Notes under the pieces: model-generated
Told to the model about the DNA's origin: nothing
Database searches by the model: none
The model's input: the letters and a program-made list of their open reading frames with translations, nothing else
From: Modestobacter caceresii
GTDB taxonomy: Bacteria; Actinomycetota; Actinomycetes; Mycobacteriales; Geodermatophilaceae
NCBI RefSeq assembly: GCF_000761485.1
Contig: NZ_JPMX01000001.1
Coordinates: forward strand, 1 to 64,000
Direction: 5' to 3'
Length of the DNA stretch: 64,000 nt
Part shown: one piece after another, positions 26,320 to 47,712 of the stretch
Numbering within the stretch: the stretch's first letter is position 1
How the letters are laid out: each line of letters begins with the position of its first letter
Translations under genes and position numbers: made by a program

Positions 26320-26721
26320 TCAGGCCGGCCGCAGTGGCGGGCCGACGCCGGCCACCGCGGCCCGCAGGCACTCGGGCAGGTCGGTGGCCGTGCCCGCGAC
26401 CCCGGGCCCACCTGCGTTGACCCAGGCGACCAGGCCGGCGGTCCGCTCGGGGGTCTGCACCTCCGACACCCAGAGCGCCGGGCCCGGCCGGCCGGTCCCC
26501 GGAGAGCGGTGGGCCAGCCCGGCCAGGGCCGCGCGGTCGCAGCGGCCCAGGCAGTCCGCGGTCACCAGTACCGCGCCGGTGGTGTGCCGCACGGCCTCGG
26601 CCAGCTGGTCGACGCCGTCGGCCGTACCGGCGAGCCGGCGCAGCGCCGCGCACCGGTGGCCGACGCACAGCGCCACCAGCGGCCCGCCCGCGTCCCCGCC
26701 CGGCACCGGGCGGCGGCTCAC
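26320..26721 (-). CDS. Thioredoxin-like [2Fe-2S] ferredoxin-type small protein
   Basis: A 133-residue protein whose core, [18 protein letters not shown] then [17 protein letters not shown], has paired cysteines spaced as in thioredoxin-fold [2Fe-2S] ferredoxins. The C-terminal part contains [33 protein letters not shown]. The GTG start overlaps the L32 stop, making it the last gene of the MRF-L31-L32 operon. A protein of this type is, from memory, a recurrent companion of zinc-free ribosomal protein clusters in actinobacteria. Role unknown: Cys-metal chemistry during zinc limitation is a guess. Confidence 0.7.
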
Positions 26722-26879
26722 GGCAGCAGGCCCCGCTCGGCGGCCGTGCGCAGCTTCTGCGGCACCAGCCGGGCGACGCCGTCCACGGTGACCGGCACCA
26801 GCGGGACCGGGGTCGCCTTCCACTGCGACCGGCGGGACCGGGTGTTGGACCGAGACGTCCTCCGCTTCGGGACGGCCAT
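26718..26879 (-). CDS. rpmF: Ribosomal protein L32, zinc-free paralogue
   Basis: A 53-residue protein starting [21 protein letters not shown], the classic L32 N-terminus, but with no cysteine at all; zinc-binding L32 carries a Cys4 ribbon. It is therefore a C-minus form that can replace the zinc-containing subunit in the 50S when zinc is scarce. It sits 3 nt after L31 and its stop overlaps the start of the ferredoxin-like gene, so it belongs to the MRF operon. Confidence 0.9.
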
Positions 26880-26882
26880 CGG

Positions 26883-27149
26883 TCAGCCTCGCTTCCGTGC
26901 CGGCCGGGCGATGGCGCCGTACCGCTGGTTGAACCGCTCGACCCGGCCGGCGGTGTCCAGCACCCGCTGGTTGCCGGTCCAGAACGGGTGCGAGGCCGCG
27001 CTGATCTCGACGTTGACCACCGGCAGCGTCTCGCCGTCCAGGTCGATGGTCGCCTCGGTGCGGATCGTGGAGCGGGTGCGGTAGGTCGCGCCGCTGGAGG
27101 TGTCGCGGAACACCACGGTGCGGTACTCGGGGTGGATGCCGGCTCTCAT
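26883..27149 (-). CDS. rpmE2: Ribosomal protein L31 type B (zinc-free)
   Basis: An 88-residue type B L31: [29 protein letters not shown], then [31 protein letters not shown]. The Cys residues of type A L31 are missing. Its ATG overlaps the MRF stop by 4 nt (ATGA), with AGAGGA 9 nt upstream. It is expected to replace zinc-binding L31 during zinc starvation, freeing Zn(II). Confidence 0.95.
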
Positions 27150-28438
27150 CGGGAGTGGTCCTCTCGGTCGGTGGTGCTGGTGTGCAGGTCTGGTTCGTCC
27201 GCAGGGCCGGATGCCTCGCAGGGGTCGGCGTGCCAGGTGCCGAACGGATCGGGCAGGGCGCCCCAGGTGTCCTCGCCGGCGGCCAGTTCGTCGTCGATCA
27301 GCAGGGCGGCTGACAGCGCCGCGGTGATCAGCGCGGCCGGCTGCCGGTGGGTGAGCACGACGATCTCGACGTCGCGGTCGCCGTGGAGGGCGTCCCAGCG
27401 CAGCGCGGCGGCGGCGCTGCGCTCCGGGTCGACCTGGCTCCACAGCTCGGCGTCGGCGCCCAGGGTGGCCAGCCACGGACCGGCGTCACCGATCCGCAGG
27501 CCGCCACCGGCGGACTCCAACCAGATCGCCCGGTCGGGCTGGCTGGCCAGCCACAGCCGGCCGCGGCTGCAGACCACGCCGGTCAGCAGCACGTCGATCG
27601 CGTCGTGCAGTCGCTCGGGGGAGAAGGGCCGGGTGGCGGAGAAGCGCACCAGCTCCACGTCGGCGACGGCGTCCAGCGGGGGCTGGCCGGCGAGCAGGGC
27701 GTCGTGCGGGGTGGGCATCCGGCCGCGCTTGGCGGTCGCCGGCAGGGCGGTCAGCAGCTCGTCGGGGTGGGCGCGGCCCAGCTGGGCCCGCGGTCCGCCG
27801 GGCACCAGCCGGTCGAGCACGGCGGTGAGCCGGACCGCAGCCCAGCCGTCGTCCGGCTCACCGGCGAGCAGCACCGCGTCGGCGGCGGTGACCTGGCCGA
27901 CGGCGACCTGGGCCAGCGTCCGCTCGTCGTCGACGGTCGCTGCGAGGCCGTGGTCGTCCATCGTCTCCTCGCCGGTGGCGGCGTCGAGCCAGCGGGCGGC
28001 GTCGACGGCCACGAGCACGCCGGCCACCTCCACCCAGTCGCCGGCGGTCTCCGCCGCCTGGTCGTCCGCGGTGTCCTCGTCCAGGACGACCTCCTCGAAC
28101 GCCCAGCAGAGGTGCTCGGGCTCGAGCGCGGGGTCCAGCTGCAGCACGATCCGGCTGACGTCGTCCCGGCGGGCCAGGGTGCGCAGCAGGGGCAGCAGGT
28201 CGAGCCGGAGCGTGCAGGACAGGCAGCCGTGGGCGAGCTCGATCGCGGCGGTGGACTCGACGACCCCGGTGGCCCGCTGCTCGCGCAGGGTGCGGACGAC
28301 GACGCCCTGCCCGAGGCCCCGGACGTCGTGGTGCACCACGACGGTGCCCGGCCGGTCCAGCAGGGGGGTGGCGGCCTGCGCGGTCAGGGCCCGGTCCAGG
28401 CCGGTGACGAGCACCAGTGGGGTGCGGCGGGAGGTCAT
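27146..28438 (-). CDS. mrf: COG0523-family protein resembling the ribosome-hibernation-factor-recruiting protein MRF
   Basis: A 430-residue CobW/COG0523-like protein. The N-terminal Walker A position is degenerate: [20 protein letters not shown] lacks the GxxxxGK[ST] lysine. The usual CxCC metal motif is [16 protein letters not shown] (Cys72, Cys75). The C-terminal CobW_C domain is present ([30 protein letters not shown]). Mycobacterial Mrf, encoded beside C-minus ribosomal genes, recruits the hibernation factor to zinc-free ribosomes and shares these traits. The ATG lies 6 nt after a -10-like TAGAGT (28450-28445), suggesting a leaderless mRNA. First gene of the mrf-L31-L32-ferredoxin operon, divergent from L28. 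Confidence 0.8.
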
Positions 28439-28458
28439 GCCGCCACTCTAACTGCAAA

Positions 28459-28473
28459 CGAGAACCGTGTTCA
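28459..28473. promoter_or_regulatory. Zur box in the divergent C-minus ribosomal promoter
   Basis: CGAGAACCGTGTTCA matches the 7-1-7 actinobacterial Zur pattern TGANAA(T/C)N(A/G)TTNTCA with few mismatches and resembles the three other boxes in this window. It is flanked by two -10-like TAGAGT elements, 28445-28450 reading left and 28476-28481 reading right, so one bound repressor would silence both operons. Confidence 0.7.
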
Positions 28474-28522
28474 TCTAGAGTCCGTCCTGCTCCCGCCCAC
28501 CGACTCCTGGAGGCGCACCACC

Positions 28523-28792
28523 ATGGCCACCTACTGCGAGGTGACCGGACGCACGCCGAGCTTCGGCAGGTCCGTGAGCCACTCGCACCGCCGCACCAAC
28601 CGCCGCTTCGACCCGAACCTGCAGTCCAAGCGCTTCTTCCTGGCCAGCGAGAACCGGTGGATCCGGCTCACCGTCTCGACGAAGGGCATCAAGACCGTCG
28701 ACGTCCAGGGCATCGAGGCCGTCGTGGCCCGGATCCGGGCCACCGACCCCGAGGCGCGCCGTCGGCTCGGTGCCGGGCGGAGGAACGGCTGA
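28523..28792 (+). CDS. rpmB: Ribosomal protein L28, zinc-free paralogue
   Basis: An 89-residue L28: [40 protein letters not shown]. Zinc-binding L28 has CxxC near the N-terminus; here it reads CEVT, so only one Cys remains and the site is lost. CTGGAGG precedes the ATG by about 9 nt. First gene of the rightward C-minus operon; its stop overlaps the L33 start (TGATG). Confidence 0.95.
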
Positions 28793-28959
28793 TGGCCCGC
28801 GGCAACGACGTCCGCCCGATCATCAAGCTCAAGTCGACCGCCGGTACCGGCTACACGTACGTCACCCGGAAGAACCGCCGCAACGACCCCGACCGGCTCG
28901 TGCTCAAGAAGTACGACCCGAGGATCCGCAGGCACGTCGACTTCCGCGAGGAGCGCTGA
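28792..28959 (+). CDS. rpmG: Ribosomal protein L33, zinc-free paralogue
   Basis: A 55-residue L33 ([43 protein letters not shown]) without any of the four zinc-ligand cysteines. It overlaps L28 by 1 nt and is followed 1 nt later by S14. Confidence 0.95.
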
Positions 28960-28960
28960 G

Positions 28961-29263
28961 ATGGCCAAGAAGTCCATGATCGCCAAGGACCAGCAGCGCC
29001 GCGCGGTCGTCGCCCGGCACGCCGAGCGCCGGGCCCAGCTCAAGGAGACCGCCCGCACCGCCGCCACCTCGGATGAGCGAGCCGCGGCGCAGGCAGCGCT
29101 GCAGCGGCTCCCGCGGGACGCCAGCCCGACCCGGCTGTGCAACCGCGACGTCGCCGACGGCCGACCGCGCGGCCACCTGCGCAGGTTCGGCCTGTCCCGG
29201 ATCCGCTTCCGGGAGATGGCGCACGCCGGCGAGCTGCCGGGCATCCGGAAGAGCTCCTGGTGA
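28961..29263 (+). CDS. rpsN: Ribosomal protein S14, long zinc-free form
   Basis: A 100-residue S14 of the long C-minus type: [82 protein letters not shown]. The short zinc form of about 61 residues carries CxxC...CxxC; this one does not. Its TGA overlaps the S18 GTG. Confidence 0.95.
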
Positions 29264-29484
29264 GCCCGGCGCCCCGGGGCGACCGGCCCCGCAAGAAGCG
29301 CAAGCTGGACGGTCCGGTCGACTGGAAGGACGTCACCCAGCTGCGCACGTTCATCTCCGACCGCGGCAAGATCCGCGCCCGCCGGGTCACCGGCCTGACC
29401 CCGGAGCAGCACCGGCAGGTGGCGCGGGCGATCAAGAACGCCCGCGAGATGGCCCTGCTGCCGTACCCGTCGACGGGCCGCTGA
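29260..29484 (+). CDS. rpsR: Ribosomal protein S18, zinc-free paralogue
   Basis: A 74-residue S18 ([59 protein letters not shown]) lacking cysteines. The GTG start overlaps the S14 stop (GTGA). Fourth ribosomal gene of the rightward zinc-responsive operon. Confidence 0.95.
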
Positions 29485-29552
29485 CCGCCGTCCTGGGCGG
29501 CGGTGTGCCACGTCCGGCTCCGTCGAGGAGCCTCCCGACAAGAGGAGACCCC

Positions 29553-29687
29553 GTGTCCGACTGCTGTTCCCCGAGCGGCTGCAGCACCACCCCCGCCGCC
29601 GGTCAGGCCGCCGTGCCGGCCGCCGGCCAGATCGACCGGCGCAACCGCGCGGAGCGCCGACGCGACGCACGGGCAGCCGAGCGCTGA
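29553..29687 (+). CDS. 44-residue Cys-rich peptide at the end of the zinc-free ribosomal operon
   Basis: The predicted peptide begins SDCCSPSGCSTTPAAG, with three Cys in the first ten residues (CCx4C), then an Ala/Gly/Pro linker and a strongly basic helix IDRRNRAERRRDARAAER. AGAGGAG lies 6 nt before the GTG, better than most sites here, and the reading frame ends cleanly. It lies 68 nt after S18 on the same strand and before the shared terminator. I know no family for it. The Cys cluster could bind a metal and the basic tail could bind RNA; both are inference. Confidence 0.65.
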   Translation: MSDCCSPSGCSTTPAAGQAAVPAAGQIDRRNRAERRRDARAAER

Positions 29688-29792
29688 CCGCGCTCGACAG
29701 GACGTCCGTCTGGTCGGCCCGCCCACGGCTGCCCTCCGGCGCCCGCGCAGGCCGCGGCCATCGCCGGGTGCTGCTCGCCGTCCGCTGAGCTC

Positions 29793-29821
29793 CCGGCGGC
29801 GCCCGGACCGGGCGCCGCCGG
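29793..29821. terminator. Bidirectional terminator between the ribosomal and znu operons
   Basis: Perfect inverted repeat ccggcggcgcccgg-a-ccgggcgccgccgg, forming about a 12-bp stem with a 5-nt loop. It abuts the znuB stop and closes the rightward operon, which ended at 29687. The 105 nt before it hold nothing recognisable. Confidence 0.7.
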
Positions 29822-30700
29822 TCAGCGGGGGAGCGCGGCCTCGTCCGGCCTGCGCGCCGGGTGGACGGGCACGGGGACGGCGCCCGGCTCCGGCGGGGGG
29901 CTGCCTCGACGCAGCAGGCGGGCGATGCTGAGCACGGCGTAGGCGGCGACCGCCATCAGCACGATGGTCCCGCCCGAGGGGGTGTCGGCGTACCAGGAGA
30001 CCGCGGTGCCGCTGACCGACACGGTGACCCCGATCAGCGCCGCGATGACCAGGCTGCTCCGGAAGCTGCGGGCCACCAGCTGCGCGCAGCCGGCGGGCAG
30101 CACCATCAGCCCGCTGATCAGCAGCAGGCCGAGCACGCGCATCGACAGCGTCACGGTGACCGCGGTGACCACGGCCAGCAGCAGGTTCAGCTGCAGCACG
30201 GGCAGCCCGCTGGCCCGGGCGTGCTCCTCGTCCAGCGCGACGGTGAACAGCGACCGGCCCAACCCGATCGTCACCGCGAGCACGACCACGGCCATCCCGG
30301 CGAACAGCACCAGGTCGCCCCGCGTCGTCGTGGTGAGCGCACCGAACAGGTAGCTGTCCAGGGTGATCGGGGTGCCGGCCGGCGCCCGGGTGACGACGAC
30401 GACGCCACCGGCGAGCCCGCCGTAGAACATGATCGCCAGCGCGACGTCGGCGCTGGCCGACCGGCGGGCGCGCAGCACCTCCACCGCCACTGCGCCGGCC
30501 ACCGTGGCCAGCAGCGCGGTGAGCACCGGCGCGGACCTGGTGACCAGGCCGACCGCCACCCCCAGCAGCGCCACGTGGCCCAGGCCGTCGCCGATCAGCG
30601 ACAGCCGGCGCTGCACCAGGTAGACGCCCACGGTGGGCGCGGTGAGGCCGACGAGCACGGCGGCCGCGAGGGCCAGCCGCATGAACTCGTAGCTCAGCAC
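29822..30700 (-). CDS. znuB: Zinc ABC transporter permease ZnuB
   Basis: A 292-residue ABC-3 type permease with about eight hydrophobic segments: FMRLALAAAVLVGLTAPTVGVYLVQRRLSLIGDGLGHVALLGVAVG is the conserved N-terminal region, and RVLGLLLISGLMVLPAGCAQLVARSFRSSLVIAALIG the conserved coupling region. It forms the membrane channel of the ZnuABC importer. The GTG start lies within the end of znuC (7-nt overlap). The last 30 residues are Pro/Ala/Arg-rich. Confidence 0.93.
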   Translation of the reverse strand: MLSYEFMRLALAAAVLVGLTAPTVGVYLVQRRLSLIGDGLGHVALLGVAVGLVTRSAPVLTALLATVAGAVAVEVLRARRSASADVALAIMFYGGLAGGVVVVTRAPAGTPITLDSYLFGALTTTTRGDLVLFAGMAVVVLAVTIGLGRSLFTVALDEEHARASGLPVLQLNLLLAVVTAVTVTLSMRVLGLLLISGLMVLPAGCAQLVARSFRSSLVIAALIGVTVSVSGTAVSWYADTPSGGTIVLMAVAAYAVLSIARLLRRGSPPPEPGAVPVPVHPARRPDEAALPR

Positions 30701-32428: not shown

Positions 32429-32443
32429 TGAGAATCGTTGTCA
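32429..32443. promoter_or_regulatory. Zur box upstream of znuA
   Basis: TGAGAATCGTTGTCA, very close to an ideal 7-1-7 Zur site. On the minus strand it overlaps a perfect -35 hexamer TTGACA (32445-32440); a weak -10, GACCAT, follows 18 nt later and ends 7 nt before the znuA ATG. Confidence 0.8.
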
Positions 32444-36604: not shown

Positions 36605-37419
36605 GAGGCGGCACCCATCCGGGCCGGGAGCGCGCCGGCTCGGGCGGCGTCCACGAGCGCGGCGCTCTGCTCGTGCTGCGGCGCGGTCAGCAGCCGGGTG
36701 ATCGGGGCGTCCTCGACGACGGCGCCTTCGTGCAGCACCACCGCGCGGTCGCACAGCGAGGCGGCCACCGCGAGGTCGTGGGTGATGAACAGCAACGCGG
36801 CGTCCCGGCTGGCCTCGCGCAGCACCGCGACGACCTGGGCCTGGGTGACCAGGTCCAGGGCGGTCGTCGGCTCGTCGGCGACCAGCAGCCCGGCCCGGGA
36901 GGCGAGGGCCATGGCGATGCAGACGCGCTGCCGCTGGCCACCGGACAGCTCGCCGGGGGAGCTCCGCAGCACCCGCTCGGTGTCGTCCAGGCCGACCGCC
37001 GACAGCAGCTGCGCGCGCTGGCGCGCCAGTTCGGCGCCGCGCAGCCCGCGGTGGTTGCGCAGCGGCAGGGCCAACTGCGCGCCGACCGGCACCAGCGGGT
37101 TGAGTGCGGCGGCCGGGTCCTGACCCACCGCGGCCACCCGGGCGGCCGTGGACCGGCGGGCCGGCGGCAACCGGGTGACGTCGACACCGGCCACCCGCAC
37201 GCTGCCCCGGACCTCGGCGCCGACCGGGAGGGTGCCCAGGACCGCTGCGGCGGTGAGCGACTTGCCCGATCCCGACGCGCCGATCAGCGCCACCCGCTCG
37301 GTCGCCGCGATCTCGAGCCGGACGCCACGCACCAGCGCGCGGCCGCCGAGGGAGACCGTGAGGTCGTCGACGACGAGGGCCGCACCCTGACCTCCCAGCT
37401 CCGCCGTATTGATAATCAT
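36601..37419 (-). CDS. DppD-type ABC ATPase (left arm), start inside a Zur box
   Basis: A 272-residue ABC ATPase: Walker A GASGSGKS, Q-loop VGQDPAAALNPL, signature GELSGGQRQRVCIAMALAS, Walker B LLVADEPTTALD. First gene of the leftward operon. Its ATG (37419-37417) lies inside the Zur-type box at 37410-37424; no Shine-Dalgarno precedes it, and a TACATT hexamer ends 8 nt upstream, consistent with a leaderless transcript. The first residues MIIN are thus encoded by operator DNA. No better in-frame start exists before the ABC domain. Confidence 0.85.
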   Translation of the reverse strand: MIINTAELGGQGAALVVDDLTVSLGGRALVRGVRLEIAATERVALIGASGSGKSLTAAAVLGTLPVGAEVRGSVRVAGVDVTRLPPARRSTAARVAAVGQDPAAALNPLVPVGAQLALPLRNHRGLRGAELARQRAQLLSAVGLDDTERVLRSSPGELSGGQRQRVCIAMALASRAGLLVADEPTTALDLVTQAQVVAVLREASRDAALLFITHDLAVAASLCDRAVVLHEGAVVEDAPITRLLTAPQHEQSAALVDAARAGALPARMGAAS

Positions 37420-37424
37420 TGTCG
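37410..37424. promoter_or_regulatory. Zur box in the divergent metallophore-type ABC promoter
   Basis: TGATAATCATTGTCG; half-sites TGATAAT and CGACAAT fit (T/C)GANAA(T/C). It is an AT-rich island in very GC-rich DNA and lies in the only promoter region between the two mirror-image operons. A TTGATA at 37409-37414 could be a rightward -35. Confidence 0.75.
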
Positions 37425-37583
37425 GCAATGTACCCGGCGGTGTTGGGTGCTCGTCGGCTGCCCGCCGCGGGCCGGTCGTCTTGCTGCAAACGGATTGCAA
37501 TACGGTGCTCGGCGCGAGGCCCACTCGCAGCCCGGTCGGGCGACTCCCCGCCGCCGGTACGACGCAGCCCCTGGAGGAACCTC

Positions 37584-38396
37584 TTGGCCGCACGCACGCC
37601 CTCCGGCCGCCGAGTGGGCGCCGTCCGCCCCGAGCTGTCCGACCTGCTCGGCAGCACCGGGGTGCTCCCGCAGTCGGCGAGCACCCCCGAGGAGGCCCGG
37701 GAGCTGCTGGCCCGGGACGGCGCGGTCGTCGTCGCCGAGCCGACCCCCGGCCCCGAGGCGCTGCCGGTCGTGGCGGCCCAGGTCTACGGCGACCGGCTGC
37801 GTCAGCTGTTCGCCGTCCGCCCGCTGCGCCAGCAGTCCGGCGAGCTGCTCGGCCTGCACAGCGACGGGGCGTACGTCGTCGTCGACGTGCACGGCCGCAC
37901 GGTCGCGCTGCGCGACCCGGACGAGGACGGGCTGCTTCAGCGCTGCGTCCGGCCCGCGCCCGAGGGCGGGGACTCCTTCCTGGTCGACGGGTACGCCCTC
38001 GTCGACGCGCTGGCCACCGGGTGCCCGGAGCTGCACGCCTTCCTGACCGGCACCGACGTCGACTACTTCGGCGGATGGGCCTCCGCGCCGCACGAGGTGC
38101 CCCGCACCCCGCTGGTCCGCCGGCTGGTCGAGCACACCCGGGCCGGCCGCCGGGTCGTGCGGGCCAGCGAGACCGCCGTCTCGGTGCCGCGCGAGCCGCG
38201 TGCCGCCGAGCACGACGCGCAGCTTGACCTGTGGGCCGACGTGCTGGCCACGGCCGTCGACGTCGTACCGCACTTCCGGCTGGAGGCCGGCGAGGTGCTG
38301 GTCGTCGACAACTACCGCTGCCTGCACGGCCGCGACCCGTTCACCGGCCAGCGCGACGTCGACGTGCTGACCGTGCTGACCGCGGACGCCTGGTGA
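37584..38396 (+). CDS. TauD/clavaminate-synthase-like Fe(II)/2-oxoglutarate dioxygenase
   Basis: A 270-residue non-haem iron oxygenase. The facial triad is LHSDG (His92, Asp94) and the distal His248 in NYRCLHGRDPF; Arg257 is a candidate 2-oxoglutarate ligand. Members hydroxylate, desaturate or cleave small amino-acid-like or sulfonate substrates; ScoE, which makes isonitriles in metal-binding lipopeptides, has the same fold. The TTG start is proposed because TGGAGG lies 6 nt upstream; a GTG ten codons later is the alternative. First gene of the rightward arm, directly opposite the Zur box, followed after 13 nt by ABC ATPases. A role in modifying the imported or exported metal carrier is inference. 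Confidence 0.8.
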   Translation: MAARTPSGRRVGAVRPELSDLLGSTGVLPQSASTPEEARELLARDGAVVVAEPTPGPEALPVVAAQVYGDRLRQLFAVRPLRQQSGELLGLHSDGAYVVVDVHGRTVALRDPDEDGLLQRCVRPAPEGGDSFLVDGYALVDALATGCPELHAFLTGTDVDYFGGWASAPHEVPRTPLVRRLVEHTRAGRRVVRASETAVSVPREPRAAEHDAQLDLWADVLATAVDVVPHFRLEAGEVLVVDNYRCLHGRDPFTGQRDVDVLTVLTADAW

Positions 38397-47209: not shown

Positions 47210-47239
47210 TCGACAACAGTTCTCACATGCTCCTATCCT
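47210..47239 (+). promoter_or_regulatory. zur promoter with an overlapping Zur box
   Basis: The Zur-type box CGACAACAGTTCTCA (47211-47225; half-sites CGACAAC and TGAGAAC) overlaps a -35-like TCGACA (47210-47215). A -10-like TATCCT (47234-47239) follows with an 18-nt spacer, 62 nt before the zur ATG. This suggests autorepression. Confidence 0.65.
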
Positions 47240-47301
47240 CATGCGAAGAACGCCGGGCTCCATCCGCAGGGCGCGGGCCGCCTCGACGAGGAGACGACCA
47301 G

Positions 47302-47712
47302 ATGATCCGCAACACCCGCCAGCGCACCGCCGTCAACGCCGTCTTCGACGAGCTCGAGGGCTTCCACAGCGCGCAGGAGGTGCACGCCCGGATGCGGGCG
47401 GCGGGGGACACGATCGGGCTGTCGACGGTGTACCGGGCCGTGCAGGCGCTGGTCGACGACGGTGAGCTCGACTCCATCCGCACCGACGCCGGTGAGGCGA
47501 TCTACCGGCGGTGCAGCACCCGGCACCACCACCACCTCGTCTGCCGCGTCTGCGGCCGCACCGAGGAGGTCGAGGGGCCCACGGTCGAGCGCTGGGCCGA
47601 CCGCGTCGCCGCCGAGCACGGCTTCGTCGACGTCACGCACACGCTGGAGATCTTCGGCACCTGTGCGGCCTGCCACAGCGCCGGGGCGCCCTCGGCCGAC
47701 CAGCCGGGCTGA
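47302..47712 (+). CDS. zur: Fur family zinc uptake regulator Zur
   Basis: A 136-residue Fur-family repressor: RNTRQRTAVNAVFDELEGFHSAQEVHARM is the winged-helix start, IGLSTVYRAVQALVDDGELDSIRTDAGEAIYRRC the recognition region, and STRHHHHLVCRVCGRTEEVEGP plus FGTCAACHSAG give the regulatory His cluster and the two CxxC structural zinc motifs. Actinobacterial Zur proteins have this His4/CxxC form. GAGGAG precedes the ATG. It probably represses, with Zn(II), the four box-bearing promoters in this window. Confidence 0.9.
   Translation: MIRNTRQRTAVNAVFDELEGFHSAQEVHARMRAAGDTIGLSTVYRAVQALVDDGELDSIRTDAGEAIYRRCSTRHHHHLVCRVCGRTEEVEGPTVERWADRVAAEHGFVDVTHTLEIFGTCAACHSAGAPSADQPG

Follow-up and report, generated by a model that had tools for sequence, protein, structure and literature searches.

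C- ribosomes, in which zinc-bearing (C+) ribosomal proteins are exchanged, are regarded as a means of freeing zinc held in ribosomal proteins (review PMC6103462), and the portion of that review at hand does not address the capture and movement of the zinc so freed. In Mycobacterium smegmatis, the Zur-controlled C- operon corresponds to MSMEG_6065-6068, with the MRF gene MSMEG_6069 and rpmE2 (6070) (PMC7174638). Here we describe a C- ribosomal operon of Modestobacter caceresii to which a small cysteine-bearing peptide gene has been added. The window, by which we mean the whole stretch analysed, comprises 64,000 nucleotides (positions 1 to 64,000 of contig NZ_JPMX01000001.1), and the features around the peptide gene are as follows:

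26718..26879, minus strand: ribosomal protein L32 without cysteine
26883..27149, minus strand: type B (zinc-free) ribosomal protein L31, no cysteine
27146..28438, minus strand: MRF, a ribosome-hibernation-factor-recruiting GTPase of the CobW family (NF047431, E 3.3e-154)
28459..28473, minus strand: Zur-box-like dyad TGAACACGGTTCTCG between MRF and L28, two mismatches to the composed motif
28523..28792, plus strand: C- ribosomal protein L28, one cysteine
28792..28959, plus strand: C- ribosomal protein L33 (PF00471), no cysteine; its ATG overlaps the L28 stop (TGATG)
28961..29263, plus strand: C- ribosomal protein S14, one cysteine, without CxxC
29260..29484, plus strand: C- ribosomal protein S18 (PF01084), no cysteine; its start overlaps the S14 stop
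29541..29547, plus strand: Shine-Dalgarno-like AGAGGAG, with a 5-nt spacer to the GTG of the peptide gene
29553..29687, plus strand: gene of a 44-residue peptide with a cysteine head and a basic tail (reading frame, orthologues, a tail with synonymous changes only, predicted helix 26-43)
29793..29821, no strand assigned: strong terminator-like hairpin without a T run, between the operon and the convergent znuB

The gene order is L28-L33-S14-S18-peptide, with MRF, type B L31 and the cysteine-free L32 divergent upstream. Zinc motifs are absent from the ribosomal proteins of the operon, as the preliminary description of this DNA had claimed: L33, S18, L31B and L32 carry no cysteine, L28 and S14 one each. 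Cysteine-bearing paralogues of S18 (CQFC), S14 (two CxxC) and L28 (CTSC) are encoded elsewhere in the same genome. The coexistence of these forms with operon paralogues devoid of zinc motifs identifies it as a zinc-independent (C-) ribosomal operon.

The peptide gene begins 68 nt behind the end of the S18 gene and comprises 44 codons, from a GTG at 29553 to a TGA at 29685-29687. Its translation is (M)SDCCSPSGCSTTPAAGQAAVPAAGQIDRRNRAERRRDARAAER. The observation from which this work started, a 44-residue Cys/Arg peptide frame within a zinc-free ribosomal operon, was upheld by the reading frame itself, by six orthologues and by the operon paralogues without zinc motifs. Two details needed correction. 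The AGAGGAG does precede the GTG, but the spacer measures 5 nt (29541-29547 to 29553) and not the 6 nt first given. Similarly, the gene follows S18, but the terminator said to close the operon is weaker than claimed, since the strong hairpin at 29793-29821 lacks a T run. Folding of 29690-29830 gave a z of -2.15, with 2 of 200 shuffles folding equally well, and a consensus scan of 28400-29900 returned no plus-strand terminator with a T run. For the interval between S18 and the peptide gene, folding in five genomes gave no support for a conserved RNA structure (z -1.05, 0.60, -3.31, -0.56 and 0.51). The third of these values belongs to G010 (locus L163, 5209-5287), where a near-perfect GC-rich hairpin occupies this interval; it is not kept in the other four.

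The GC content of the peptide frame by codon position is 0.75, 0.75 and 0.89, versus a GC3 of 0.96-0.99 in its neighbours, and is in this respect less gene-like than that of the neighbouring genes.

The surroundings of the operon are those of zinc homeostasis. An island at 26718-47712 groups the C- ribosomal genes, MRF, ZnuA and adjoining ABC genes (znuABC), among them an ABC ATPase, and a nickel/peptide-type ABC transporter; regulators of the FUR (PF01475) and ArsR families and a heavy-metal P-type ATPase are encoded in it as well. Zur-like sites were searched with a motif composed for this analysis, TGANAACGRTTNTCA, which shares its core with the Zur site of M. smegmatis rpmB as given in PMC7174638. 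A perfect match to the motif stands before znuA (32429-32443), and sites with two mismatches lie at 28459-28473 (MRF/L28), 37410-37424 and 47211-47225, to be read against the 1-5 hits at up to 3 mismatches found in each mononucleotide shuffle of the window. Corresponding sites at the operons of other carriers of the peptide gene and of one related genome without it (G009) showed one mismatch in G015 and three in G001 and G009. G010 has a two-mismatch site at about the right distance, not placed exactly, and no match at up to 3 mismatches was found in G017 and G018. From the similarity of the sites and from their context, Zur control of the peptide operon is likely. Induction of the peptide by zinc starvation is likewise likely, given the zinc-homeostasis surroundings, and its co-expression with the C- operon is very probable.

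Three further observations were made in the island. Its nickel/peptide-type ABC transporter consists of a solute-binding protein and a fused permease matching nik/opp/cnt models below cut-offs. The site at 37410-37424 lies beside divergent reading frames for an ABC transporter and a TauD-family oxygenase, and the segment 37419-41296, in which the TauD-family oxygenase (37419-38396), an MFS transporter and an ABC ATPase adjoin the metal-type ABC transporter, is possibly a metallophore-related cluster. The site at 47211-47225 is followed after about 90 nt by the FUR-domain region (about 47300-47712), an arrangement compatible with autoregulation.

Orthologues of the peptide were recovered in six genomes of the genus including that of the window (G000, G001, G010, G015, G017 and G018; profile search, E 9e-15 or better), and a second profile search found it in 6 of 112 family genomes. 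In every carrier, the gene sits inside the C- ribosomal operon. Its start codon is GTG in three carriers and ATG in three, preceded by GAGGAG in five of the six; G018 has GGTGAGGGC there. Both ends of the peptide are constant, MSDCCS...C at the N-terminus and DRRNRAERRRDAR at the C-terminus. The alignment shows M1, S2, D3, C4, C5, S6, C10, D28-R40 and R44 to be invariant in all six carriers, and the contiguous Cys codons C4-C5 are present in each of them. Residues 7-9 of the head and the linker differ among carriers, the linker also in length.

Codon comparisons over the 15 genome pairs gave the clearest picture of this pattern. In the 13-codon tail, all 67 of 67 differences are synonymous and fall in the third position, while the linker shows 23 synonymous versus 158 non-synonymous differences (whole peptide: 109 and 207). 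Such a codon pattern is what selection on the two ends of a protein, with an unconstrained middle part, leaves behind. A reading frame kept in six genomes, together with a tail in which only synonymous differences occur, indicates more than a chance ORF. Judged by its sequence and that of its orthologues, 29553-29687 is a genuine protein-coding gene, almost certainly real and translated. The N-terminal cysteine cluster claimed in the preliminary description is seen in C4, C5 and C10 of all six carriers, and conservation of the frame in close relatives, on which the description had staked its claim beforehand, was found in five genomes besides that of the window.

Structure prediction agreed with the basic C-terminal helix proposed earlier. 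AlphaFold2, run on the six-sequence alignment, returned a single predicted helix at residues 26-43, with a pLDDT of about 92 for residues 31-40, although a helix is to be expected from any Arg/Ala/Glu-rich stretch. Head and linker were of low confidence (mean pLDDT about 53; overall mean 67.9, pTM 0.33). Residues 28-44 have a net charge of +4. No family in Pfam or NCBIfam matched the peptide at E up to 10, and a PDB sequence search, ribosomal peptides included, gave nothing better than E 0.47 (a beta-lactamase). The peptide appears to be without homology to any ribosomal protein in Pfam, NCBIfam or the PDB, so that it does not qualify as a C- paralogue.

Within the genus, C- S14 was detected in 7 of 23 genomes (E 1.2e-46 or better), namely the six carriers and G009. 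Among the remaining genomes, 11 had only weak S14 matches and 5 had none, all five less than 90% complete. Six of the 7 genus genomes with C- S14 have the peptide, and none of the 16 others does. At E <= 0.01, the genus search itself returned 11 of 23 genomes: the six true carriers, each at E <= 9e-15, and five weak matches, none better than 0.0026.

The preliminary description had proposed a search downstream of rpsR in relatives, and this held for most carriers: the gene follows S18 in five of the six and stands at the head of the operon in the sixth, G015 (locus L160, 5332-5451). There it occupies the slot of C- L28, 68 nt behind the Zur-like site, and its stop overlaps the L33 start (TGATG) by the same junction as that of the L28 stop with L33 in the window. 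C- L28 was not found in the G015 genome at E <= 1e-5. G015 appears to have lost C- L28, and the peptide gene to have moved within the operon, staying with it despite the new position. G009 retains L28-L33-S14-S18 and the same znu flank, with the peptide missing; the peptide is evidently dispensable in this genome, and loss seems the simplest reading. A tree of C- S14+S18(+L33) covering 10 of 12 rows (two lacking S14) had low supports (0.19-0.85), and G009 was not clearly outside the carriers. G009 also has about 80 extra bases between the S14 stop and the S18 ATG (locus L137, 1801-1885), where the window has an overlapping stop and start.

C- operons also occur beyond the genus, and no convincing relative of the peptide was recovered from those examined. 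Of 54 family genomes, 13 had a C- type S18 match (E 4.3e-23 or better). Ten of these 13 lie outside the genus, and the peptide was absent from all ten of their loci. In the class sample, 142 of 394 genomes have C- S14, and the peptide search gave 4 of 394 at E <= 0.001, the genome of the window included. Of the other three matches (E 1.9e-4 to 9.2e-4), G361 and G280 were inspected and G071 lies within an 888-residue frame; all three look like chance. The order sample gave 4 matches in 200 genomes, two of them G000 and G010, with no convincing new relative; G095, on inspection, was without the Cys head. The match in G597 lies inside a 935-residue frame. Outside the genus, the class and order searches score only 18 to 64 candidates in each genome, so that weak relatives may escape them.

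In a profile scan of 48 C- loci, the peptide was recovered from 8, all belonging to the six known genomes, and the match ranked after these had an E of 0.071; a plasmid search gave no match. Scanning of genome contigs yielded one relative among 102 pattern stretches, in Modestobacter sp. VKM Ac-2985, in a scan that did not return the other known carriers. Matches to a degenerate DNA pattern for CCx4C were present in 45 of 59 genomes and were uninformative. Small Cys-rich reading frames were scanned twice. The first scan gave no further relative in the 33 of 46 C- loci that could be anchored (13 unanchored, the S14 pattern being unmatched). The second covered 40 class loci hand-chosen from the 142 C- S14 genomes and likewise gave none in the 38 anchored (L188 and L199 unanchored); it accepts only frames with a Shine-Dalgarno site and overlooked one of five known positives other than the window (L162), so that it is not exhaustive. 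None of its other small frames with at least 3 Cys resembled the peptide by eye. One of the 38 loci, in G185 (L176, 4587-4835), holds an unrelated C- cluster with an 82-residue His/Cys-rich, repeat-bearing frame behind L31B, without a match in Pfam or NCBIfam. This case suggests that metal-binding peptides can join C- operons independently.

The earlier interpretation stands as far as a protein-coding gene tied to a zinc-free ribosomal operon is concerned. Its Cys motif is apparently not a general feature of such operons, as one of the seven genus members with the operon is without the peptide and no relative was seen in the examined C- operons outside the genus.

We tentatively propose, as the best supported of several readings though less likely than not, that the product is a ribosome- or rRNA-docked thiolate peptide which retains zinc while C- ribosomes are taking over. 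Zur derepression would switch on transcription of L28-L33-S14-S18-peptide, and translation of the peptide would start from a Shine-Dalgarno site of its own. This product would be bipartite, with a flexible head carrying three invariant cysteines (CCx4C) and an invariant Asp before them, a basic C-terminal helix, and an Ala/Pro linker of immaterial sequence joining the two. The helix would dock on rRNA or the ribosome, and the head would hold a metal ion, most likely zinc, freed as C+ ribosomal proteins are exchanged. Zinc would in this way stay close to the ribosome or be passed on, the MRF/CobW GTPase encoded nearby being one candidate recipient.

Two invariant ends and a free linker suggest two binding functions. 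The tail resembles an RNA-binding basic helix, and the head offers three thiols and an Asp. Metal binding by the head is somewhat favoured, and for binding of the tail to rRNA or the ribosome we consider the case evenly balanced. Against the head as a metal holder, three cysteines are one fewer than in the usual Cys4 zinc site. The peptide may in this way link metal handling to zinc-free ribosomes. A stronger form would make it a ribosome-tethered zinc scavenger, made only during the C+ to C- replacement, which sits on the ribosome by its helix, takes zinc from the shed C+ proteins and passes it to MRF or to zinc enzymes, the ribosome acting as a controlled zinc store; we regard this as speculative and quite unlikely.

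The small size, the basic helix and the operon partners, which are ribosomal proteins with MRF divergent, would also suit the main rival reading, a peptide that serves C- ribosomes alone, either in hibernation or as an accessory. Its helix would bind rRNA like small actinobacterial ribosomal peptides, and the Cys head would be a redox or protein-contact element without a metal site. The tail is indeed the sole long stretch free of any change. However, rRNA binding alone does not explain three invariant cysteines in a zinc operon; moreover, the PDB search, which included ribosomal peptides, stopped at E 0.47, and G009 does without the peptide. Such a role is conceivable but on the unlikely side. 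Alternatively, the peptide could act free in the cytosol, as a chaperone or a sensor of zinc or of some other thiophilic metal, its tail contacting MRF or another protein instead of the ribosome. MRF, encoded divergently, is a member of the CobW metallochaperone superfamily, and the znuABC, metal ATPase, ArsR and FUR genes of the window would fit such a function. Yet many C- operons have MRF and lack such a peptide (in M. smegmatis, as far as the gene table of PMC7174638 goes, and in the C- loci examined here), and the strongly basic tail is better suited to nucleic acid; we hold this reading to be unlikely.

Tandem Cys codons raise the question of a cysteine- or zinc-responsive leader, in which translation and not the product controls neighbouring genes. 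Such attenuators, the polycysteine short ORFs, exist in M. smegmatis (PMC9031893, reporting Canestrari et al. 2020), and in G015 the peptide frame comes first in the operon, its stop overlapping the start of L33. In the five other genomes, however, it is the last, with no operon gene after it, so that it does not lie upstream as a leader would. Selection on the amino acids of the Cys-free tail (67:0) is not expected of a leader, and the peptide has a Shine-Dalgarno site whereas the described polycysteine ORFs are leaderless. A leader is thus very improbable. Finally, a non-coding chance ORF in GC-rich intergenic DNA, to which the high GC, short length, less typical codon-position GC and want of a family match could point, can be dismissed: the ends are identical in all six orthologues, start signals are retained, one copy has been rearranged, and the third-position-only change in the tail contradicts it.

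On the proposal of a ribosome-docked zinc holder, a peptide that travels with the C- operon and keeps its three cysteines and basic helix across several species would be a direct candidate for catching the freed zinc. The locus also offers a case of a young orphan gene joining a ribosome-remodelling operon, and being relocated and lost within one genus (loss being the simplest reading). No description of the peptide was found among the literature matches listed, in the text that these provide, and among these matches it is apparently undescribed.

Among known small proteins, bacterial metallothioneins (SmtA, MymT) are small, rich in cysteines and found in a metal-regulated setting. The peptide is like them in being small and Cys-bearing and in its metal-regulated setting, but has only 3 Cys in 44 residues, far from many, and a basic helix. 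The small actinobacterial ribosomal peptides bS22 and bL37 are very short and basic. The peptide shares both properties and differs by its Cys head and by the absence of a sequence match in the PDB search. With the CobW/COG0523 zinc metallochaperones (ZigA, MRF), it shares the regulatory neighbourhood, and a zinc-handling role is conceivable; unlike them, it is a 44-residue peptide without a GTPase domain and without a Pfam or NCBIfam match. Like the mycobacterial polycysteine leaderless short ORFs (Canestrari et al. 2020, via the part of PMC9031893 that reports them), it is a short frame with contiguous Cys codons, but it is last in the operon in five of six genomes, has a Shine-Dalgarno site and carries a conserved Cys-free tail. 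The M. smegmatis C- operon has the same order L28-L33-S14-S18 and the divergent MRF and L31B, and its Zur site before rpmB resembles the Zur-like dyad of the window (PMC7174638). The gene table of that paper shows no Cys peptide there; the peptide is an extra component, seen in this analysis in a single genus. The operon type is therefore already known, and what is new is the orphan small-protein gene added to a C- ribosome operon.
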